Assembly: GCF_000833575.1 (NCBI RefSeq) | Contig: NZ_CP010827.1 | Location: 934,980 to 998,979 of the forward strand | Length of the DNA: 64,000 nucleotides | Origin: Corynebacterium singulare | Lineage (GTDB): Bacteria; Actinomycetota; Actinomycetes; Mycobacteriales; Mycobacteriaceae | Direction: 5' to 3' | Shown here: in pieces, positions 43,908-58,004 of the stretch | Numbering within the stretch: position 1 is the stretch's first letter | Layout of the letters: the number at the start of each line of letters is the position of its first letter | Made by a program: the position numbers and the translations under genes | Notes under the pieces: model-generated | Database searches by the model: none | Told to the model about the DNA's origin: nothing | What the model saw: only the letters and a program-made list of their open reading frames with translations

Positions 43908-44411
43908 CTAGGAGCGGTCGAAGTCGCGCTGCAGGTGCACTAACCCCAGGCGCACGCCGTCCTTGGTGTGAATATTCGGCATGCGGCCGGTCTCTACAAA
44001 GCCAAACTTTTTGTGCAGCGCAATGGAGCCCTCATTGGTGTCCACGATGTAGGTAATGATGGTTTCCACGTACTCATTCTCGGCGGCATGATCCATGAGC
44101 GTGGCCATCAGTTCGCTGCCGACACCCCTGCCGCGCGCGGACTCAGCGATGTAGATGGAGTCTTCAGCGGTGCCGTAGTAGATGGCGGGGGTCACGAACT
44201 GGAAATATGCTGCCCAGCCGACGATCTCCTCGTCGTCCACAGCGACATAAACCGGGTAACCTTCTTTCTCCATCTGTGTAAGCCACTGCTCGCGGTCTTC
44301 CACGGTTTCCTGCCAGGTGACGAGGTTAGCAGCCGGCGTTGCAGCGGAGGCGGAGTTATAGATGGCGGCGATGGCGGGGGCGTCGCCAAGCACTGCGGGA
44401 CGAACGTGCAT
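43908..44411 (-). CDS. GNAT acetyltransferase, phosphinothricin/methionine-sulfoximine type
   Basis: 167 residues. The order IAAIYNSASAATPAANLVTWQE, YYGTAEDSIYIAESARGRGVGSELM (acetyl-CoA pyrophosphate loop) and SIALHKKFGFVETGRM matches the Pat/MnaT subfamily, which detoxifies phosphinothricin or acetylates methionine analogues. Start follows AAGGATC. A relic of a second, similar enzyme lies 10 bases upstream on the same strand. Confidence 0.87.
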   Translation of the reverse strand: MHVRPAVLGDAPAIAAIYNSASAATPAANLVTWQETVEDREQWLTQMEKEGYPVYVAVDDEEIVGWAAYFQFVTPAIYYGTAEDSIYIAESARGRGVGSELMATLMDHAAENEYVETIITYIVDTNEGSIALHKKFGFVETGRMPNIHTKDGVRLGLVHLQRDFDRS

Positions 44412-44420
44412 GATTGATCC

Positions 44421-44552
44421 TTAAACCATGAGTTGCAAATGGGTGAGGTCGGGCCAGCGCCCAGCCTTGCAGGTCACTTTCTTGAACGTACCTACAGTGG
44501 CAAAGCCGAACTTCTCATGCAACTTGATAGAGGCCGTGTTCTCCGGAAAGCC
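44421..44552 (-). pseudogene. C-terminal relic of a second Pat-like GNAT acetyltransferase
   Basis: The reading frame ends FPENTASIKLHEKFGFATVG and then FKKVTCKAGRWPDLTHLQLMV, the typical last 40 residues of this acetyltransferase group. Upstream of about 44552 the homology stops without acetyl-CoA loop or start codon. The relic stop lies 10 bases before the intact GNAT gene, so the original arrangement was a tandem pair. Confidence 0.75.
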
Positions 44553-44623
44553 CGGTTGAGGGCCGATGTTATCGCGGGGGACAGTGGAGTCCGTCGCTGT
44601 GCGGATTCTCATGCGCGCTCGAC

Positions 44624-44629
44624 TACACT
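44624..44629 (+). promoter_or_regulatory. -10 hexamer of tatD, leaderless spacing
   Basis: TACACT ends 7 nt before the ATG at 44637. The promoter lies next to the broken acetyltransferase. Confidence 0.6.
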
Positions 44630-44636
44630 CGCAGCC

Positions 44637-45461
44637 ATGTCTAAGAAGAAGCCACGCCCCACGCCCGTGCCCGCCGAAGGTCTGAGCCAGCTTATCGACG
44701 CCCACACGCACCTCGCCTCGTGTCGCGACTCTGACGCCGACTTAGTTGCCCGCGCCCGTGCTGCCGGGGTGGAGCGCATCGTCACCGTTGGTGATGGTTT
44801 GGCTGAGGCTGAAAAAGCCCTGGCTGCCGCCCACGAGTTCGATAACGTGTATGCCGCGTGCGCAATTCACCCGACAAAGGCTGGTGAGCTCGACGAGGCC
44901 GCCCGTGCTCGCCTGACTGAGATGGCTGCGGACCCGCGCTGCGTGGCCATCGGCGAGACCGGCCTGGACACGTATTGGATTCATCACGAACCGGAGAGCA
45001 CCGCACCGCTTGAGGTGCAGGAGGAAGCGCTGCGCTGGCACGCGGAGCTGGCGGCCAAGGTTGGTAAAACCCTTATGATTCACAACCGTGAAGCTGACGA
45101 GGACCTCATGCGAGTGCTGGGGGAGTGCGCTCAGGCGCCGACAGTGATGCTGCATTGTTTCTCCTCCCCGCTGGAGGTGGCCAAAGAAGCGCTCGACCGC
45201 GGCTATATCCTCTCTTTCGCCGGCAATGTGACTTTCAAGCGCAATGAAGAGATGCGTCAGGCGGCGGCACTGGCACCAGCGGGTCAGCTACTTATTGAGA
45301 CGGATGCTCCCTACATGACCCCGGAGCCTTTTCGCGGGGCGCGCAATGAGCCCTCGCTTATCGGACATACCTATCGTTGTGTCGCGGAGGCCCGTGGACA
45401 GCAGGTGGAAGAACTTGCTGCGGAGGTGACGGAAACTTTCGCCGCAACCTTCGGGGTGTGA
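44637..45461 (+). CDS. tatD: TatD family metal-dependent hydrolase (DNase)
   Basis: 274 residues from MSKKKPRPTPVP. Metal ligands: LIDAHTHLAS (HxH), AIGETGLDTYW (Glu), KTLMIHNREADEDL (His), VMLHCFSS (His) and LLIETDAPYM (Asp). The family comprises 3'-5' DNases used in oxidative-damage repair and DNA turnover. It stands before rpf2-ksgA-ispE, as in mycobacteria and C. glutamicum. Confidence 0.95.
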   Translation: MSKKKPRPTPVPAEGLSQLIDAHTHLASCRDSDADLVARARAAGVERIVTVGDGLAEAEKALAAAHEFDNVYAACAIHPTKAGELDEAARARLTEMAADPRCVAIGETGLDTYWIHHEPESTAPLEVQEEALRWHAELAAKVGKTLMIHNREADEDLMRVLGECAQAPTVMLHCFSSPLEVAKEALDRGYILSFAGNVTFKRNEEMRQAAALAPAGQLLIETDAPYMTPEPFRGARNEPSLIGHTYRCVAEARGQQVEELAAEVTETFAATFGV

Positions 45462-45538
45462 GGATCTTCACTTTTGCTAAACCTCCTGCTCAGAGGTGGC
45501 AGGCGTGTTTGTTGTGACGAGTGTTCTGCCAGTGGTAG

Positions 45539-46843
<1,305 letters not shown>

Positions 46844-48696: not shown

Positions 48697-50580
48697 ATGG
48701 CGAACCTCATCAACCTGGAAAATGTAAGCAAGTCCTTTGGACTCAAGACCCTCCTGAACAGGGTCTCTCTCGGTGTTCAAACCGGTGATCGTATCGGTAT
48801 CGTCGGCGTCAACGGTGGTGGTAAAACCACGCTGCTGGAGGTCCTCACGGGCATTGAGCCGCCGGACTCGGGGCGAGTATCGCACAACTCGGATCTACGC
48901 ATGGCGGTGGTGACGCAGCGCTTTGAGGTGGAGGAGTCGCTCACCATTGCCCAGGTCATTATCGAGCCCCTCGGTTTGGAAACCTTCGAGTGGGCCTCCA
49001 ATGCCAAGGTGCGCGATGTCCTCGGCGGGCTCGGTATCGTCGACCTCGGCCTCGATACCCCGGTGGGATCCCTTTCCGGTGGCGAACGCCGCCGCGTGAA
49101 TCTTGCGGCCGCGCTGGTGCAGGACCTTGATGTGGTGGTGCTCGATGAGCCAACGAACCACCTCGATGTGGAAGGCGTGCAGTGGCTGGCGAAGCACCTG
49201 CTTGCCCGCAAGCTGGCGGTCATCGTTGTCACCCACGATCGCTGGTTCCTCGACACCATTGCCACGACCACGTGGGAGGTTCACGATGGCGTGGTTGATG
49301 CGTACGAGGGCGGTTACAATGACTGGACTTTCGCCCGCGCTGAGCGAGCCCGGCAGGCCGATGCCATGGAGCAACGCCGCCAGAATCTGGCGCGCAAGGA
49401 GCTCGCGTGGCTGCGCCGCGGTGCACCGGCGCGAACCTCGAAGCCGCGCTACCGCATCGAGGCCGCTGAGGCACTCATTGCGGATGTTCCCGCACCGCGC
49501 GACAAAGTTGAGCTCATGGCCTTCTCCAAGCAGCGCCAAGGGCGCGTTGTCATTGAACTCGAGGATGCCACAGTTACGACGCCGGATGGTCGCACGTTGG
49601 TGGATCACCTCACGTGGCGCCTCGCCCCAGGTGAGCGCATTGGGCTTGTCGGTGTCAACGGCTCAGGTAAGACAACGTTGCTGCGGGCGCTCGCAGGTGA
49701 GGTGGAGCTGGCCGCAGGTAAGCGTATCGAAGGTAAAACCGTGCGCCTTGGTTGGTTGCGGCAAGAGCTTGATGACCTCGACCCAGAACGCAGGCTTCTC
49801 GACGCCGTCGAGGACGTCGCCACCTATGTGCATCTGGGAAAGAAGGAACTCAGTGCTTCTCAGCTGGCGGAACGCCTGGGATTTTCCGCCAAGCGCCAGC
49901 GCACTCCAGTGGGTGATCTGTCCGGAGGTGAGCGCCGCCGACTGCAGCTGACCCGTGTGCTTATGGCGGAGCCGAACGTGCTGCTTCTCGATGAGCCCAC
50001 GAACGACCTTGATATCGATACCCTTCAAGAGCTGGAATCCCTCTTGGATTCTTGGCCGGGCACGATGGTGGTTATCTCGCACGATCGCTACCTCATCGAA
50101 CGCATCGCGGACAATACCTATGCGCTCTTCGGCGATGGCAAGCTCACCAACCTTCCCGGTGGTATCGAGGAGTATCTCCGGCGCCGCCAGCAGATGGAGG
50201 CCACCGCGTCTCGCGGTGTTATTGATCTTGGGGAGAAGTCTTCGGAACCTGCCGCGGACGCTGCCTCCAGCTCAGCAGCAGATTCCGCGCAAGGACCGGC
50301 ACGAGGTTCTGCCGCCGCAGCCCCCACCAAGCGTCTCAGCTCCCAGGAAGAGCGTGAACTCACCAAGAAGATGAATTCACTCGAGCGCAAGATGGCCAAG
50401 CTTGATGAGAAAACCTCACAGTTGAACGAGAAAATGGCTGCCGCCGCCGAGAAAATGACCTCTGGGCAGGGTGATTCCGCAGAGCTGTCGACGCTGGACG
50501 CAGAACTCAAGGCCGTTGCCGCCGAGCGTGAGGAGCTCGAGATGGAATGGCTGGAGCTGGGAGAGAAGCTCGAAGGATAG
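48697..50580 (+). CDS. ABC-F family ATPase (ribosome-associated, Uup/EttA-like)
   Basis: 627 residues with two ABC cassettes and no membrane segment. First: GVNGGGKTT, LSGGERRRVNLAAAL, VVVLDEPTNHLD. Second: GVNGSGKTT, LSGGERRRLQLTRVL, VLLLDEPTNDLD. A linker lies between them and a C-terminal coiled coil (about 540-625) is rich in Glu/Lys. ABC-F proteins act on ribosomes; the C-terminal coil suggests the Uup type. TAGGAT 9 nt before the ATG may be its -10. Confidence 0.93.
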   Translation: MANLINLENVSKSFGLKTLLNRVSLGVQTGDRIGIVGVNGGGKTTLLEVLTGIEPPDSGRVSHNSDLRMAVVTQRFEVEESLTIAQVIIEPLGLETFEWASNAKVRDVLGGLGIVDLGLDTPVGSLSGGERRRVNLAAALVQDLDVVVLDEPTNHLDVEGVQWLAKHLLARKLAVIVVTHDRWFLDTIATTTWEVHDGVVDAYEGGYNDWTFARAERARQADAMEQRRQNLARKELAWLRRGAPARTSKPRYRIEAAEALIADVPAPRDKVELMAFSKQRQGRVVIELEDATVTTPDGRTLVDHLTWRLAPGERIGLVGVNGSGKTTLLRALAGEVELAAGKRIEGKTVRLGWLRQELDDLDPERRLLDAVEDVATYVHLGKKELSASQLAERLGFSAKRQRTPVGDLSGGERRRLQLTRVLMAEPNVLLLDEPTNDLDIDTLQELESLLDSWPGTMVVISHDRYLIERIADNTYALFGDGKLTNLPGGIEEYLRRRQQMEATASRGVIDLGEKSSEPAADAASSSAADSAQGPARGSAAAAPTKRLSSQEERELTKKMNSLERKMAKLDEKTSQLNEKMAAAAEKMTSGQGDSAELSTLDAELKAVAAEREELEMEWLELGEKLEG

Positions 50581-51615: not shown

Positions 51616-52173
51616 ATGAATGCATTCCGTCGTGTTTCTCGCCTGTCCGCCACCGCTGTTCTGACCACAGCCCTCGCGGTGTCCGGCGCATCAGCCGCCC
51701 AGGCACAGGATATTAACCAGCTGTCCTCCCAGGCCACTGAGCAGATCAATTCTCTCCAGATCGAGCTGCCTGCCCAAGCATATGATGTTGCGAAGCAGCT
51801 CAATGTCCAGCTGCCGGCTTTCATCAAGAAGCCGACTCCCGCCGTGGCTCATGAGCTCGTTGGAGCTACTCACGCTCACCTGCTGAAGCAGGGCCACCAT
51901 GCTGATGGGAACGCCAAGAACATCGCCCAGGAATGGGCGGACCAGGCAGCTGCCGGCAAGGTCACCTTCCATGAGAACGCCGGTGACGGCCTGACGCACC
52001 TAGAAGAAGGCAGCGGCAATATCTACAAGCTCACCGAGTCTGAAGCGAAGGACCGCGTGAATTGGCTTAACCGCGATGTCCCCGTGACCAAGACTGACGG
52101 CACTGGCTTCGGTGTTGCCCAGTCCTACGACGGCACTTACGTCTATGTGGCGGAGTACTTCTTCAACAAGTAG
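51616..52173 (+). CDS. secreted protein with CAP/SCP-like domain
   Basis: 185 residues. A signal peptide ends ASAAQA before QDINQL. The C-terminal ~110 residues resemble a CAP domain (KNIAQEWADQAAAGKVTFHEN, later VNWLNRDVP and GFGVAQSYDGTYVYVAEYF): alpha-beta order, a His in the middle and the terminal aromatic strand fit, although no catalytic claim is made. It has its own strong terminator. The domain call is moderate. Confidence 0.65.
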   Translation: MNAFRRVSRLSATAVLTTALAVSGASAAQAQDINQLSSQATEQINSLQIELPAQAYDVAKQLNVQLPAFIKKPTPAVAHELVGATHAHLLKQGHHADGNAKNIAQEWADQAAAGKVTFHENAGDGLTHLEEGSGNIYKLTESEAKDRVNWLNRDVPVTKTDGTGFGVAQSYDGTYVYVAEYFFNK

Positions 52174-52210
52174 CCCCCACAAAATAACCCCAACAAAGAC
52201 CAGTGAACGA

Positions 52211-52234
52211 AGCCCTGCCGTTGTAGGCAGGGCT
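52211..52234 (+). terminator. rho-independent terminator after the CAP-like gene
   Basis: AGCCCTGCC/GGCAGGGCT 9-bp stem, 6-nt loop, followed by TTCT. Confidence 0.8.
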
Positions 52235-52259
52235 TTCTGCACGTTTTCGGCCAGCGCGT

Positions 52260-52265
52260 TACTGT
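52260..52265 (+). promoter_or_regulatory. -10 hexamer of the monooxygenase gene, leaderless spacing
   Basis: TACTGT ends 7 nt before the ATG at 52273, which therefore is preferred over the in-frame GTG at 52264 lying inside the hexamer. Confidence 0.6.
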
Positions 52266-52272
52266 GGGGCTC

Positions 52273-52596
52273 ATGATTTTGATCAACGTACAGTTCCACG
52301 TCAAGCCTGAGTACGCCGAGACCTTCCTCGATGAAATCGACTGGTACACCAAGGCATGCCAGGCCGAGCCCGGTTGCATCGACTTCAAGTGGTTCCGCGA
52401 TCCGGAAGACAAGCAGCGCTTCCTGCTGTTGGAGTCCTACAAGGACGGCACGGATGTCGACCACGTCAATACCGAGCACTTCAAGCGTTCTTGCGAAGAG
52501 CTCCCTAAGTACCTAGTGGAAACCCCGGACATCATCAACACCAAGATTCAGGGTAAAACCCAATGGGATAAGATGGCCGAATATCAAATAGCGTAA
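52273..52596 (+). CDS. ABM-type (antibiotic biosynthesis monooxygenase) quinol-oxidase-like protein, 3' end replaced by insertion
   Basis: 107 residues from MILINVQFHVKPEYAETF. Small ferredoxin-like dimer of the ABM family, with KACQAEPGCIDFKWFRD, RFLLLESYKDG and VNTEHFKR as family marks; such proteins oxidise quinones or degrade haem-like substrates without cofactor. The reading frame runs into a mobile element at 52567: WDKMAE is native, and the last four residues YQIA come from the element. The original end, DKMAEFSVD, is found at 55171-55200 on the far side. The protein is probably still functional. Confidence 0.88.
   Translation: MILINVQFHVKPEYAETFLDEIDWYTKACQAEPGCIDFKWFRDPEDKQRFLLLESYKDGTDVDHVNTEHFKRSCEELPKYLVETPDIINTKIQGKTQWDKMAEYQIA
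52567..52582 (+). repeat. attL core repeat
   Basis: GATAAGATGGCCGAAT, identical to 55171-55186. The flanking bases differ on both sides, so 16 bp is the full identity. Confidence 0.82.
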
Positions 52597-52639
52597 TCGC
52601 ATAAGACAAGCAAATAGGAATACCCCGGCACTTGGCTGC

Positions 52640-52697
52640 GAACTGCTCCCCATAAGTTGGACTGAGAAATCAGTAGCCTACTAGTGGGGAGCAGTTC
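52640..52697. repeat. 58-bp IS3/IS150-like paired ends (MITE-like)
   Basis: GAACTGCTCCCCA and TGGGGAGCAGTTC are perfect 13-bp inverted ends around 32 bases that include the small stem ACTGA-gaaa-TCAGT. The left half with AAGTTGGACT resembles IS150-group termini. No transposase remains between them. Confidence 0.55.
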
Positions 52698-52823
52698 ATT
52701 CAGGAGTCAGGTCCGTTCTTTGGTACCGGTAAATTTCGGATGACCGTCATACTAGCTTCGTCGTCTACGACGGCGAAGGAAAGCCTTATCGTTATCTGTG
52801 TTGACGTCGACTCGAATCATAAC

Positions 52824-53312
52824 CTAGGGGATTTCCGGCAACCTCCAGATGCGGTCACCTATCGTTGTTACCCGCACGTCTGGTCGAATCTTGATGATGA
52901 AGTCTTCATCCGATTCCGTGCGGGGGACGTAAGCGAAGCCAGGAGTATTAACGATTCCTGGTATCGCGGGGTAAGCGGGGTTGTAGTCGATAACTTGCCG
53001 GAACACGATTAGACGCTCGGCAAGACGTTGGGCCTTGCGGCGCGAAGTCTTTGCATTCACGAACGCATCCTCACCCTCTAGGTTGTAGTGGGCGATTAGC
53101 CTAAGCGACTGGTACAAAGAATTTTTCTGAAAGTCCGAGTCAACCCTCCACGGGAGATTATCGTTGATAATCGTCATCGAAGATATGTACCCGGATTGTT
53201 TGGCTAGCTTACTAACGTACTGGCGAGAAACGCCGTACTCTCTAGCAATATCCGACTGTCGGTAACCTTCCTTAATCATCGTCATCACGATGTCGTGAGT
53301 GAGTCCGCTCAT
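52824..53312 (-). CDS. helix-turn-helix protein of the integrated element
   Basis: 162 residues. The N-terminal HTH is KEGYRQSDIAREYGVSRQYVSKLAKQSGY. The rest shows no recognised family; it is mixed helical with RRKAQRLAERLIVFRQVIDYNPAYP and an acidic end. The position beside a serine integrase suggests a phage-type repressor or excision regulator. Codon use and composition differ from the host genes. Function not assigned. Confidence 0.65.
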   Translation of the reverse strand: MSGLTHDIVMTMIKEGYRQSDIAREYGVSRQYVSKLAKQSGYISSMTIINDNLPWRVDSDFQKNSLYQSLRLIAHYNLEGEDAFVNAKTSRRKAQRLAERLIVFRQVIDYNPAYPAIPGIVNTPGFAYVPRTESDEDFIIKIRPDVRVTTIGDRIWRLPEIP

Positions 53313-53465
53313 ACTATTGGTGGGTCCCGCTTTAGCCCGTACATGCCTTTCCCTAAACGGCGGTGAGTTTATAGCTATACCTTAGACGTTCGTCACCCGA
53401 GGACTTAAACTGCGAGGATTGGGGTTGCTCGCAAATCGTGGACACGTAGTGGAGCTACCTAGTGG

Positions 53466-53699
53466 TTAGGCAGCTTTTTCTTTTCTGCTGGTGGTCGAAC
53501 CGGTGTGGTTCTCAAAGTCGACAGGGCTGACCATACCGAGTGCTTCAGTGTCGGCGTCGACGGTTGTAGATGGCTTCAATCCAGTAGGCAACGGCCTTGC
53601 GTGCGGCATCACGGGTCGCCCAGCGCTTACGGTCGTAGAATTCGGTTTTAAGTGTCGACCAGAAGGACGCTTCACTGTTGTCGTGTCGTTTTCGTCTTC
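53466..53699 (-). pseudogene. IS3 family (IS150-type) transposase OrfB C-terminal relic, frameshifted
   Basis: Minus-strand translation gives DNSEASFWSTLKTEFYDRKR, then ATRDAARKAVAYWIEAIYNR, an RRRRH then a stop/frameshift, then ALGMVSPVDFENH in another frame: the last ~75 residues of an IS150-type integrase-like transposase. It lacks the DDE acidic residues. It abuts the serine integrase stop codon at 53700, and minus-strand sequence just beyond its stop (GTGTCCACGATTTG) resembles an IS3 right end. Confidence 0.75.
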
Positions 53700-55136
53700 C
53701 TAGGTTTGTAGTCGGTCTTTTAGTTGCTGGGGTATGCAGAACTCTGTTTCTAGGATTCCTGGAGTTTTCCAGGAGCTCTTAGTTAGCTGGCGTACCCTAA
53801 CACTAACTTCGTGCCTGAGCATGAGAAGGCGCTTTCCCTCTTCGTTTAGCTCGTTCCACTCGTCGATGTATCTGCGTCCGGTGGATACCCACTCCCTAAC
53901 TGTTTTGTCTGGGATGGACTCTAGGTTCTTTATTCGTTCGCTTATCTGGTTCAGCTGTTGATGCAGCAACCTACGAGCGTTCTTATTGAGAGCAGAGCTC
54001 AGGTACCCGGACAGCTCCTCGTAGGCTTGGTTAGCTTCTGCTAGCTCCTCCGAGGTGTCTCGTCCAGAGATGATTCGGTGTTCCATAATCTCGTGGTCAC
54101 CTAGTTCTTGTTCGAACAATTCGTACACGCGTTGCTTCACAGGTTCTCCTGAGACAGCGTGAGGCAGGTGTTCTTGTGGACAGTAGTAGGCTTCGTTGAC
54201 TTTGCCTCCGGCCATCTTCTGACGTCTGATGTGCATGTTTTGTCCGCAATCCCAGCATTTTAAAACCCCGAGCAGGGGAGAGGTATCCCCGCCGGTAGGG
54301 CGGTTGCTCCTAGAGCGTAGGAGTTCTTGAATCCGATTGAAATCCTTTGCGCTGATACTAGGCTCGCACTTCTCTACCGGGTTACCTACGGCATCGAGAA
54401 CCAGAGACTTCTCGTGCGTCGTCCAACCTAGGTAGGCTTTGTTACGAAGCATCTGCCTTACCGTTTCACCCTGCCAACCCTGGGTTTTCTTTCTCCACCG
54501 TGATTCTGTCGCTGTGGGGATTTTTTCGTTGTTAAGCCATTTAGCAATAGCCCAAGCTGATACTCCGTCCAGGGCCATACCAAAAATCTTCTGAACCACC
54601 TCTTGTTCTTCGGGTTCTTTTTCCAGCTTCCACCCTTCGAGGTACTTGACAGGAACATACCCGTACGGTGGTTTGCCTCCGAACCATTTACCGTCTCTGC
54701 GCATCTTCTCCTTAGTGGCCTTGGTACGCTCTCGGATAGCTTCCAGCTCTCCCTCGGCAACACCAGAGATGGCACTAGCCACCATTCGCCCTACCCAGGT
54801 TCCTAGGTCGATGTTCTCGCTGATGCACACCAGGGTTTTGTCTTGCTCGATAATCCATGCGAAAAGCTTGTGCGTGTTGATTGAGTTACGAGCTAGTCTG
54901 TCCAGCTTCCAAGCCACGAGGATTTCCCACTCCGCGCTGAGTGGCTCTTTAAGGTACGGCCCGAGCTCCAGGGCGTCGAACGGGGAGATAGAGCCTGAGA
55001 CATCCAGGTCCTCTGCCCAGGCTACGATTTCGTGGTCGTTTTCTTGTGCCCAGTTCTCGATGAGCTCTCGTTGCCTAGCGATACTGGTTGATTCTTCGGT
55101 TGACCTGCTGATTCTGGTTCTGGCTAGCACTCGCAT
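53700..55136 (-). CDS. large serine recombinase (site-specific integrase)
   Basis: 478 residues. The catalytic domain (1-140) has the nucleophile region RTRISRSTEES (Ser10) and the invariant VAWKLDRLARN with its arginines. A recombinase domain follows (GKPPYGYVPVKY... VSAWAIAKWLNNEKIPT), then a zinc-ribbon (LKCWDCGQNM... YYCPQEHLP) and a coiled coil (about 365-410). The start codon is 35 bases from attR, as usual for phage-type serine integrases next to their attachment site. It should catalyse insertion into the monooxygenase 3' end. The frame is intact. Confidence 0.92.
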   Translation of the reverse strand: MRVLARTRISRSTEESTSIARQRELIENWAQENDHEIVAWAEDLDVSGSISPFDALELGPYLKEPLSAEWEILVAWKLDRLARNSINTHKLFAWIIEQDKTLVCISENIDLGTWVGRMVASAISGVAEGELEAIRERTKATKEKMRRDGKWFGGKPPYGYVPVKYLEGWKLEKEPEEQEVVQKIFGMALDGVSAWAIAKWLNNEKIPTATESRWRKKTQGWQGETVRQMLRNKAYLGWTTHEKSLVLDAVGNPVEKCEPSISAKDFNRIQELLRSRSNRPTGGDTSPLLGVLKCWDCGQNMHIRRQKMAGGKVNEAYYCPQEHLPHAVSGEPVKQRVYELFEQELGDHEIMEHRIISGRDTSEELAEANQAYEELSGYLSSALNKNARRLLHQQLNQISERIKNLESIPDKTVREWVSTGRRYIDEWNELNEEGKRLLMLRHEVSVRVRQLTKSSWKTPGILETEFCIPQQLKDRLQT

Positions 55137-55170
55137 GAGACCGTTTATACATTAACCGAAAACCGAGTGT

Positions 55171-55186
55171 GATAAGATGGCCGAAT
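55171..55186 (+). repeat. attR core repeat
   Basis: GATAAGATGGCCGAAT, second copy; followed in frame by TTTTCCGTCGACTAA, the original end of the monooxygenase gene. Confidence 0.82.
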
Positions 55187-55240
55187 TTTCCGTCGACTAA
55201 TTCGCTGCTACCGACTTATCTGGGCTTACCCCACACGACA

Positions 55241-55262
55241 AGCGCCGCTTCCGAGCGGCGCT
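55241..55262 (+). terminator. displaced terminator of the monooxygenase gene
   Basis: AGCGCCGCT-TCCG-AGCGGCGCT, 9-bp stem, followed by GTTGGCGTTTTAT. It sits 40 bases beyond the original stop codon, now 2.6 kb from its gene. Confidence 0.7.
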
Positions 55263-55310
55263 GTTGGCGTTTTATAGGGAGCAACCAGGCTTACCTCCGC
55301 TGGGAGTGGC

Positions 55311-58004
55311 TCATGCTTCGCATGCGGTCGTGAGAGTTTTGTCGTCGTTGACGTATTGTTCGAGAGCTTCCTCAAAGGCGTGGGCGTACAGGCTCGCGCC
55401 TTCGGCCAGCGGATGAACACCATCGTCATACAGCAACGCCGGGTTCTCTTGTGCGGTGCCACACCAATCCGCCAGGTAGACGTTGTCGCGCTGCGATGCT
55501 GCCTCGACCATCTCCGCGCGTGCTTGGCCCATCCACTCGCGGTCACCATACGGTAGGGCGAGGATGACGGTTCGCTCGGGGCCGATAGTATCGAGTAACT
55601 CATCCAACTGCCCGTCAGCGGCCGCGCCATTGGTGCCAAGTCCTACAAAGACGGTGGAACGCAGCTGGCCGGACTCACTCAGGGATGACACCTGGGGGAG
55701 TGCAGCGGAGTAGTGGCGGGAGACCTCCGCATCTATGTAGATACCGGGGAATGCAGCATTGAGCGCCTCTGAGGAGGCAAGCATGACGGAATCACCTATC
55801 GCCGTAATCTCCGCGCCAGTGGGAAGCTGTCGCTTCTCCTTCGGCTTCTCTGAAGCCGTAGGCGTTGCTGCGGCAGACGCTGCCGCCTCTTCGTTGGACT
55901 GCGCCATGCGCTCCAACTCACGCTCAAGTTCCGTCTTGTCACTGGAAGTCACTACTCCGTAAATCACTCCCACGACAGAAAGCACGACGAGGGCTGGGAC
56001 GGCGGGCCACATGGCCTTGCCAAAGCCCTCCTTCATCTCATGCAAGGAGGGGCGTGCTGCCCAGTAATTGTGCCATGTCTTGAGGTAACCACCGCGGCGG
56101 AAGGGGTTTTCCACAAACTGATAGGTGATCTCTGCCAGTACGAAGGAGAGCGGCAGGGCAAGAATCCCCAGGGCCCACGCGGGTGCATCGGAGACAGCCA
56201 GCAGAATCATGATGATGGGCCAATGCCACAGGTACAGGGAAAAGGACCTCTGTCCCAGCCAACGCATGGCGCGCGTGCGGAACAACCAGGTCAGTGGCCC
56301 AGCTTCGCGCACCACGCCCCATATCATGGCAGCACCGAGCACACTGGTGAGCACAAGTCCGCCCCGGTAGGTGAACTCGCGGTCCGCGCCCATCCATACC
56401 AGCTGCGCCAGATAAGCCACACAAGCCAGGGTTCCCACGGTGCCGGCGATTGCGCCTTTGCTTGATGACGCCCACGAGTCCGCCCCCGCATCCTTCGTCG
56501 TCGTGGTGAGCACGAAGGACAAAAGCGCGCCGATGAGGAGGCCGAAGGCGTGCGTATCGGTTCCATAGTAGACGCGGGTAGGGTCCTCGCCGGGTGTGAA
56601 GAGGAACGCCATAGCGAGGGCAGAGGCGATAGCGAGCAGCAGTGTCACCGCGATGGGGAGTCGCTTGGGTTTCGCGCGTGAGATGCGGAAGACACCGATC
56701 ATAAGAAGCGGCGATAGCAGGTAGAACTGCTCCTCCACAGCAAGGGACCAATAGTGTGCAAAGACCTGAACTTCATTGGGCGCGAAGTAGGTTTGGCTGG
56801 TGGCAATTTGGGTCCAGTTGTTGACAAAGAACAAGGTGCCCAGGAATTGCTCACGGATGCCAACGGCCAGGTCACCTCCTATCGCTGCGACTAGTGCAGT
56901 GCACACACAGAGCACGATGAGCGCCGCCGGTAGGATGCGACGGAAACGTCTGATCCAGAAATCCTTGAGGTTAATGCGTCCGGTGACGTTGTACTCGCGG
57001 ACAAGCAAAGAGGTAATGAGGAAGCCAGACAGGACGAAGAACATGTCCACGCCCAAGTAGCCGCCTGGCACAAGGTCACCGAAGAAGTGATACAGCACCA
57101 CGGCTAGGACTGCGAGGCCACGAAGGCCGTCGAGCCCCGGTACGTGGCGCAGGCGTGCGCGCCGCTCCCGCTTAACGGTGGCGGATTCCTTCGGCACAGC
57201 CAACACGTCAGTAGCGTGCTCGTTCCCATTCTGGCTGACTGCTACAGCAGATGATTCAGCACGTTGATCGGCGCGGACCTGTTCCTTATCGGTCAGCTTG
57301 CTATCTTCCGCTGTGGTTGCGGCCCGCCGCTGTTCACGGGAGGGGTGTGCCGGCTTGAGCTGTTGCGCGGTCGGTGTGCCCACGGGCTGGGAGCGGCGAG
57401 CCAAGGCGCGCGCAATCTCGTTGTCTGATGTTTCAGTGACCGGCTTTGTCGTGATAGCCGGGCTCGAGGTGGTCTTCTTCGGCGTGCTCGGCTCTGGCGA
57501 TGGTTGCACTGGACTAGTGGGAACCGCGGGAGCAGTGGGTTTTGCCTGTTGTGCAGCAGCGGCCCCTGGCTGAATCTTGACAGCACGCGGGAGCGGGCGG
57601 CGGCGTCGCGAGGGTGTGTCCTCGGCATCTTCGCGGGCCTTAGTAAGTTGTGCCTTGCGCACAGCGGACGCTTTGGGGAGGGACGCCGAATCTAGCTCAA
57701 GGGAGGTGTTGTCGCTCCTCCGGGGACGTAGGCGGCCAGATTTCGGTGCGGGCTTCGGCGCCGGTTTAGAAGCTGGCTTGGGCTTCGGCTCTGGCTTGGG
57801 CTCAGGCTCGGACACTGGCTTCGGCTTAGGCTCTGCCTTGGGCTTAGGCTCGGACACTGGCTTCGGCTTAGGCTCTGCCTTGGGCTCTGGCCTCGGCTCG
57901 GGTGCGGCCGATGGCGGGGAAGAAGGGGAGGGCGTCGAGGGACTTGAGGAAGACTTCTCACGCTTTGTCGAACGTGACAACAACGACCGCACAAACTTCT
58001 TCAC
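55311..58004 (-). CDS. OafA-type acyltransferase with C-terminal SGNH domain and long disordered N-terminus
   Basis: About 897 residues. The GTG at 58004 (VKKFVRSLLSR) has CGGAG upstream; a GTG five codons further up is possible. Residues 1-280 are disordered and basic, with Pro-Lys-Glu repeats (EPKPKPVSEP). Then a complete acyltransferase-3 membrane domain begins (PGLDGLRGLAVLAVVLYHFF, GYLGVDMFFVLSGFLITSLL; about ten helices), followed by an extracytoplasmic SGNH esterase-like domain with GDSVMLASSEAL and DGVHPLAEGASLYA. Such fused proteins O-acetylate surface glycans or lipids. Confidence 0.9.
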   Translation of the reverse strand: MKKFVRSLLSRSTKREKSSSSPSTPSPSSPPSAAPEPRPEPKAEPKPKPVSEPKPKAEPKPKPVSEPEPKPEPKPKPASKPAPKPAPKSGRLRPRRSDNTSLELDSASLPKASAVRKAQLTKAREDAEDTPSRRRRPLPRAVKIQPGAAAAQQAKPTAPAVPTSPVQPSPEPSTPKKTTSSPAITTKPVTETSDNEIARALARRSQPVGTPTAQQLKPAHPSREQRRAATTAEDSKLTDKEQVRADQRAESSAVAVSQNGNEHATDVLAVPKESATVKRERRARLRHVPGLDGLRGLAVLAVVLYHFFGDLVPGGYLGVDMFFVLSGFLITSLLVREYNVTGRINLKDFWIRRFRRILPAALIVLCVCTALVAAIGGDLAVGIREQFLGTLFFVNNWTQIATSQTYFAPNEVQVFAHYWSLAVEEQFYLLSPLLMIGVFRISRAKPKRLPIAVTLLLAIASALAMAFLFTPGEDPTRVYYGTDTHAFGLLIGALLSFVLTTTTKDAGADSWASSSKGAIAGTVGTLACVAYLAQLVWMGADREFTYRGGLVLTSVLGAAMIWGVVREAGPLTWLFRTRAMRWLGQRSFSLYLWHWPIIMILLAVSDAPAWALGILALPLSFVLAEITYQFVENPFRRGGYLKTWHNYWAARPSLHEMKEGFGKAMWPAVPALVVLSVVGVIYGVVTSSDKTELERELERMAQSNEEAAASAAATPTASEKPKEKRQLPTGAEITAIGDSVMLASSEALNAAFPGIYIDAEVSRHYSAALPQVSSLSESGQLRSTVFVGLGTNGAAADGQLDELLDTIGPERTVILALPYGDREWMGQARAEMVEAASQRDNVYLADWCGTAQENPALLYDDGVHPLAEGASLYAHAFEEALEQYVNDDKTLTTACEA
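57805..57888 (-). repeat. 42-bp tandem repeat coding for Lys/Pro-rich linker
   Basis: Two near-identical 42-base units (57805 and 57847) encode the repeated PVSEPKPKAEPKPK block of the acyltransferase tail; weaker copies flank them. Copy number may vary between strains. Confidence 0.65.

Follow-up and report, generated by a model that had tools for sequence, protein, structure and literature searches.

Our analysis of a 64,000-nucleotide stretch of Corynebacterium singulare DNA (the window) indicates, with good confidence, that the 2.6-kb element at the 3′ end of its small antibiotic-biosynthesis-monooxygenase (ABM) gene, which spans from the start of one core at 52567 to the end of the other at 55186, is what is left of a temperate phage of ~40–48 kb related to the cluster A actinophages, whose immunity repressor may plausibly still protect the cell. 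The anatomy of the element, the homologies of its two genes, the gene order in intact relatives, the empty sites of other species and the debris in its gaps carry the reading as a phage remnant. Although decay of a prophage is an ordinary fate, two aspects are less so: a serine-integrase attachment (att) site through which the target gene receives a new end, and the survival of the lysogenic gene pair amid stray repressors found across the genus. The features are as follows.

52264..52596, plus strand: ABM target gene, ending YQIA (PF03992, E 6.8e-16; ends of 29 relatives)
52567..52582, no strand: attL core, 16 bp (repeat comparison)
52583..52596, plus strand: substitute ABM 3′ end of phage origin, with the remaining YQIA codons and a stop (not seen at any of the 29 empty sites read; junction pattern without a match in 241 other genomes)
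52640..52697, no strand: 58-bp palindrome between attL and repressor, probably associated with an insertion sequence (IS) (second copy in own genome, 91%; plasmid match, 94.7%; fold)
52824..53312, minus strand: cluster-A-type immunity repressor, 162 aa, open frame (phrog_357, E 1.7e-26; 903 phage records; PDB 7r6r, E 5e-15)
53420..53668, minus strand: 3′ part of an IS3-family element, left in the gap from repressor to integrase (87.5% to the IS3 transposase region of NZ_CP073099.1)
53700..55136, minus strand: large serine integrase of the Bxb1 type, 478 aa, open frame (PF00239, PF07508; phrog_95, E 2.3e-109; PDB 9iu2, E 1.5e-44)
55159..55170, plus strand: phage-side copy of the ABM codons upstream of the core, coding KTEC (9/12 identical to host)
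55171..55186, no strand: attR core, 16 bp (repeat comparison)
55187..55270, plus strand: native 3′ end of the ABM gene, now displaced (FSVD codons and stop), with its hairpin (sequence, relatives, fold)

Attachment site and target gene

The repeat GATAAGATGGCCGAAT lies at 52567–52582 and 55171–55186, with two copies in the window and none on the other strand, and grows leftwards to 28 nucleotides with 25/28 identical (52555–52582 versus 55159–55186). By our own arithmetic, the chance expectation of a perfect 16-mer repeat within 3.7 kb is ~0.002. An earlier note on this DNA had described a 16-bp repeat flanking 2.6 kb with a serine integrase, as well as an ABM protein ending in YQIA on the left and the native FSVD end with the host terminator on the right, and these observations hold: both copies of the repeat were located, 34 bases separate the integrase start from the right core, the ABM protein at the left core terminates DKMAEYQIA, and the right core is followed by the FSVD end, a stop at 55198–55200 and then the hairpin. 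The last four residues are YQIA instead of native FSVD, with the reading frame kept. The phage side would translate as KTECDKMAEYQIA-stop, in place of the KTQWDKMAE of the host and the KTEWDKMAE of several relatives; the match of 9/12 over the leftmost 12 nucleotides of this phage-side copy has a chance of ~4e-4 at a fixed register, again by our own arithmetic. attP thus carries a version of an ABM 3′ end, 13 codons long, of which nine fall inside the 28-nucleotide repeat. Such a phage-side copy of a gene end is unusual for a serine integrase.

Native ends in other species support site-specific insertion. An ABM match is present in 225 of the 242 Corynebacterium genomes of our database, which holds one genome per species so that all counts are species counts; the ends were read, each with 70 nucleotides downstream, at 29 loci (L032–L060) besides that of the window. 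These genes end in FSVD, FSV, FAVD, FKVD, YKVDS or YKAE, and in YQIA at 0/29. We read all 29 as empty sites, in which a native-type end is followed by other sequence; the refuting outcome named in the earlier note, YQIA ends in all relatives and no empty site, did not occur, and its proposal that an insertion close to the ABM stop codon swapped the last four codons agrees with both the att cores and these relatives. A junction pattern like that of attP, with up to three mismatches allowed, matched only the window’s own genome (1/242), and a degenerate pattern for the same attP gave 0 matches in IMG/VR. The search proposed earlier, for the same integrase at this gene in other corynebacteria, gave no second case: among 242 genomes, the element was found in that of the window alone. 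When the integrase was searched against these genomes, the best-scoring match after a 47% relative in C. phoceense (G129) was 36% identical, and plasmid-borne copies of the repressor or integrase were only distant (best 34% and 29%). As a single-sequence query, the integrase found no relatives in genome and viral contigs; alignment queries did find them.

Could the altered C terminus instead be a host polymorphism beside a coincidental 16-bp repeat, with no attachment site at all? Dyad symmetry around a crossover dinucleotide, which was not significant for attP (P 0.77–0.89) and marginal for attB (P 0.03–0.13), would fit such a view. Yet the repeat begins 34 bases from a serine integrase, it is followed directly by the native end and the hairpin, and in all 29 relatives that were read the arrangement is uninterrupted, which together make this explanation very improbable. 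An Rfam scan of 52000–55700 gave no match.

The site departs from what is described for this class of enzyme (statements on cited papers, here and below, refer to excerpts of them). Serine-integrase cores are given as 5–8 bp or as few as 3 bp, and serine-integrase phages of Mycobacterium smegmatis as avoiding tRNA genes (PMC8092301, PMC9262239); the Bxb1 core is 8 bp (PMC3642061). For Bxb1-type integrases one would look for a core of about 3–8 bp in partly symmetric sites, and we find a core of 16 bp that extends to 25/28. Bxb1 itself, with an integrase of the same family, also targets a protein-coding gene, groEL1, but inactivates it and has an 8-bp core (PMC9262239, PMC3642061), whereas the ABM gene stays open. 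A parallel is offered by the attB-8 prophages of M. abscessus, in which insertion near a stop codon replaces seven C-terminal residues by eight phage-coded ones, with function thought to be kept (PMC8092301). In the part of that paper we draw on, however, the three sites used by serine integrases, with cores of 5–8 bp, do not include attB-8, in contrast to the combination of a 16-bp core and a serine integrase in the window. Because described serine-integrase cores are 3–8 bp, a 16-bp core that rebuilds the end of its target gene is unusual, and the core of a related prophage (G242, below) points the same way. Renewal of a target-gene end is otherwise known chiefly from tyrosine integrases that insert into tRNA genes.

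The surviving integrase and repressor

The integrase has the resolvase catalytic (PF00239) and recombinase (PF07508) domains of the Bxb1 type, with the zinc-ribbon domain (PF13408) slightly below threshold (22.5 versus 25.3 bits), and its phrog_95 alignment covers residues 1–469. It is 42–43% identical to the integrases of Mycobacterium phage HINdeR and Rhodococcus phage RER2, and 58–84% identical to the six best metagenomic protein clusters. PDB 9iu2, which we take to be the Bxb1 integrase (the database entry says only Integrase), has counterparts of R8, S10 and the DRLxR motif in the alignment, and we assume that S10 and the arginines have the catalytic roles. R8 and S10 are present in six of the seven sequences of our integrase alignment. 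The seventh, a 75% metagenomic relative (P0006), has K and N at these positions and is perhaps an inactive copy.

The cargo described in the earlier note as a helix-turn-helix protein plus IS debris is indeed present, and both parts can be specified further: the debris is of the IS3 family, and the protein is a recognisable phage immunity repressor, an identity that was missed and that changes the likely function of the remnant. Homology to cluster A repressors is nearly full-length, with phrog_357 (annotated as transcriptional repressor) aligning to residues 3–160 and 7r6r, a solved immunity repressor, to residues 9–160. The protein matches 903 phage records, from Mycobacterium (834), Rhodococcus (44) and Gordonia (25) phages. 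The residues through which the solved repressor contacts DNA give a mixed picture: with a numbering offset of 20 residues that we inferred, R45 and Q46 correspond to R30 and Q31, but W50 is replaced and the D104/R108 region is ambiguous (below).

The same integrase and repressor families occur in the cluster A actinophages (Mycobacterium HINdeR, Bxb1 and L5, and the related Rhodococcus RER2; the cluster labels of single phages are partly our assumption). As in the window, these phages have both genes on one strand, and their order, which the window's pair follows, is integrase, structural genes, repressor and replication genes once the genome is closed at attP; compared with HINdeR, the window integrase is 42–43% and the repressor ~32% identical. 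Judged from such relatives, some 37–45 kb of genes have been lost. When 47 HINdeR and RER2 proteins were compared with the window at E 1e-4, matches were limited to the integrases and repressors, and the structural and replication genes of an intact cluster A prophage are missing. In cluster A lysogens that have been profiled, only the integrase or parABS is expressed besides the repressor (PMC6550527), and the remnant thus retains the gene pair that such lysogens express.

Intact relatives and the probable collapse of the prophage

Two IMG/VR prophages contain both genes and show what an undamaged relative looks like: G242 (IMGVR_UViG_2751185912, 47,421 bases) and G243 (IMGVR_UViG_2808606645, 39,805 bases). 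They share a serine integrase with the window, at 44–47% identity, and a repressor at 38–48%, but are whole prophages, whereas the window holds a remnant. In G242, the integrase lies at 44183–45580 and the repressor at ~15.4–15.9 kb (converted from locus coordinates), followed by exonuclease, DnaB, endonuclease VII and primase genes, with a family A DNA polymerase ending <100 bases from the far att core. G243 has its integrase at the very end, only 12 bases short of the contig edge, and also carries the repressor, a terminase and replication genes. The repressor stands about 15 kb (G242) or 10 kb (G243) from the end opposite the integrase, with cluster A genes between, and both prophages read, along the integrase strand, att, integrase, structural genes, repressor, replication genes, att. 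The window keeps its integrase and repressor in this order and on the same strand. The insertion site of G242 is the start codon of an ABC-F-type gene, whose frame is kept by a core of 17/18 (GGGTTT, one mismatch, CTATGGCGAAC), and the likeness of this target to an ABC-F-type gene of the window suggests the genus of its host. In the window, that gene (48697–50580) is intact, its start resembles the G242 target and its site is empty. An intact close relative probably exists as well, for metagenome clusters with 83% integrase and 86% repressor identity both give a longest contig of 48,238 bases, a shared figure most simply explained by one phage-sized contig.

The two gaps of the element contain IS-associated sequence. 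The remnant at 53420–53668 matches a C. tuberculostearicum plasmid (NZ_CP073099.1) in a region with an annotated IS3 transposase, and its second match in its own genome is just 29 bp. On the attL side, the palindrome folds at −42.7 kcal/mol (z −6.9) with no T tract, and may stand in as the ABM terminator. It has a second copy in its own genome (C1:2797893, 91%) and is 94.7% identical to sequence 3 bp ahead of a different gene annotated as IS3 transposase on the same C. tuberculostearicum plasmid. IS-mediated deletion on both sides is likely, with the stronger case for the gap between integrase and repressor. Plasmids of Corynebacterium carry copies of the palindrome, and an Arthrobacter plasmid has half a copy.

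We propose the following sequence of events. First, a Bxb1-type integrase would have recombined attP with attB in the last ABM codons; because attP carries a copy of the ABM 3′ end with other last residues and a stop, the host gene would have stayed open with four residues changed. Next, IS insertions and deletions would have removed two blocks, the replication genes on the attL side of the repressor and the structural and right-end genes that separated it from the integrase, leaving both att cores, the integrase and the immunity repressor. We recognised no recombination directionality factor, so the remnant should be locked in. Finally, the repressor would probably still bind stoperator-like sites of incoming related phages, with superinfection immunity as the predicted result.

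The earlier note had left a choice between a decayed prophage and a satellite. A small autonomous element, consisting of integrase, repressor and two att sites and relying on a helper phage for its directionality factor and packaging, would fit the intact integrase and repressor frames, the intact cores and the fact that G129 has the same integrase–repressor neighbourhood. G129 is a second collapsed copy: it runs integrase, repressor, truncated exonuclease and a transposase-type frame (rve domain) inside a major facilitator superfamily (MFS) transporter gene, and its far att was sought in that genome and not found. However, the gene that G129 occupies is a different one and part of a phage exonuclease is left there, as independent decay predicts; the window’s element occurs in 1/242 genomes; both its gaps hold IS-associated debris; and among its frames, only two of which are intact genes, no packaging or hijacking gene was recognised. 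We consider a satellite improbable, and the notion of a purpose-built minimal element gives way to the related genes at the predicted positions of the 39.8- and 47.4-kb cluster-A-like prophages. Decay from such a prophage, the other half of that choice, is favoured by their integrase and repressor order and by the debris. The transporter gene of G129 apparently lacks its N terminus, a counter-example to gene-keeping insertion.

Several observations weigh against parts of this reading. Traces of deleted phage blocks were sought in both gaps and none was convincing, and since no phage pieces are recognisable there, the lost gene content is deduced from relatives. The palindrome in the left gap is linked to IS3 by position on one plasmid only, and a second plasmid of the same strain has a copy with no transposase annotated adjacent, in an incomplete gene table. 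For the repressor, the essential W50 of the solved protein aligns to K35 and the D104/R108 region aligns without confidence, and the operator may therefore differ from that of the solved repressor. A promoter scan of 52200–55400 for consensus sigma-70 sites found one site, against a shuffle mean of 1.6, and none upstream of the repressor.

Stray repressors across Corynebacterium

The repressor is found in 23 of the 242 genomes, 19 of which have full-length, unbroken versions (23 copies, the window’s included) and four only broken or partial matches (G034, G029, G092 and G010). When 20 repressor neighbourhoods (L085–L104) were compared with the 47 HINdeR and RER2 proteins, some of them on contigs that end close to the gene (L085, L089), the only matches besides the repressor were two to the exonuclease, a 34–35-residue fragment in L100 and a weak 24% match in L095. 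Tyrosine integrases lie ~7.5 and 15.5 kb from the repressor in G138; among the matches listed for the 23 genomes, no other lies within 20 kb on the same contig. In the PHROG tallies of repressor neighbours, no capsid, portal or terminase appears among the 25 families listed per batch.

Other cluster A genes served as controls. The exonuclease matches 114/242 genomes at E 0.001, but reaches at least 60% identity only in G129 (60%, truncated) and G232 (34 residues, 65%), the best of the remaining 112 having E 8e-10 and 31%. DnaB matches 215/242 genomes, at best with E 1.9e-9 and 28%, as expected for host DnaB. Terminase matches 37/242, at best 41% over ~500 residues plus one 113-residue piece at 47%, where the G243 terminase is 60–69% identical to that of HINdeR or RER2. 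Neither helicase nor terminase was found at cluster-A-level identity in any of the 242 genomes.

Across 26 repressor genes, including two phage copies and one Mycobacterium copy, pN is below pS in all 325 pairs. In three syntenic pairs, G134/G133, G225/G149 and G234/G184, for which frames of at least 120 aa were compared and pairs below a 60% length ratio dropped, repressor dN/dS is 0.11, 0.13 and 0.34, and dS is 1.08, 0.67 and 1.37, versus 0.15–0.43, 0.02–0.31 and 0.52–1.11 in neighbouring genes. The repressors of a fourth pair, G138/G127, differ too little for a judgement (dN/dS 0.57 at dS 0.05). The high dS of the repressor suggests allele replacement. The low dN/dS, some of which may date from life in the phage, and a repressor position that is conserved in some sister species support retention but are no proof of function in the host.

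These data bear on the last step of our proposal, for which there is a neutral alternative: the same remnant, with integrase and repressor surviving by chance. This is a serious contender, though we put it somewhat short of even. The integrase is also open without obvious use, and the debris is still recognisable, so that decay may simply be recent. Against chance survival, the repressor outlasts the other phage genes tested (23/242 genomes versus two with an exonuclease of at least 60%, both fragments; DnaB or terminase at cluster-A-level identity in 0/242), and its substitution patterns, dN/dS of 0.11–0.34 and pN below pS in 325/325 comparisons, speak for constraint. Cloned repressors confer immunity, generally weaker than that of lysogens (PMC6550527), and a cloned repressor reduced plating by more than four logs (PMC9283540). 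Retained superinfection immunity is plausible for the window’s remnant.

Some stray repressors adjoin defence genes. Around 19 repressor loci we collected 155 frames (at least 110 aa, within 5 kb), of which 154 were scanned, one second repressor copy being left out; PADLOC was run one by one on 30 neighbours, and other assignments came from tallies and Pfam. Restriction–modification, CRISPR or mad3/LmuB-like genes occur at at least 7/19 loci, five of them independent (L088, L089, L090/L092, L091 and L102/L103). They include a complete type I restriction–modification operon on the same strand that ends 52 bases before the repressor (L089:2945–9374), an MmeI-like type IIG enzyme (L090/L092), Cas9 and Cas1 (L091), cas1 and cas2 (L102) or cas1 (L103; type I-E by tally) and a mad3/LmuB-like gene (L088), with weak PDC candidates in L099 and L091. 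At 11/19 loci, the neighbours scanned singly gave none of these or weak candidates only (L099). Because a control set of 102 frames from the flanks of the window’s element and of G129 also gave defence matches, including a type III methyltransferase, we do not claim an enrichment of defence genes beside orphan repressors.

More broadly, Corynebacterium might keep stray cluster-A repressors of collapsed prophages, at times together with the integrase as in the window, as a standing antiphage gene, with alleles swapped by recombination so as to track immunity types, and some of the phages concerned might use a gene-restoring attP with a serine integrase. We offer this tentatively, as possible rather than probable; it draws on the finding that, in the three syntenic pairs, orphan-repressor dS exceeds that of any neighbour measured while dN/dS is low, and on the restriction or CRISPR genes that adjoin some copies. 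If the repressor still works, the 2.6-kb scar would be an immunity island of minimal size, and repressor genes that bacteria carry apart from any prophage would form a class of defence that finders of prophages and of defence systems could miss. In a literature search of titles and abstract starts, with subscription papers mostly outside it, no claim of orphan or domesticated immunity repressors or of such Corynebacterium prophage remnants was found among the papers listed, and none of serine integrases restoring gene ends, which is weak evidence of novelty.

Two further arrangements of these genes were seen. Paired cluster-A-type repressor genes stand ~0.8 kb apart in L100:9300–11123, with the exonuclease fragment between them, and ~2.5 kb apart in L098:8376–11937. 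In Mycobacterium fragae, a repressor 67% identical to that of HINdeR (L156:10001–10471) is accompanied by no other of the 47 HINdeR and RER2 proteins in 20 kb, and stray repressors may thus occur beyond Corynebacterium too.

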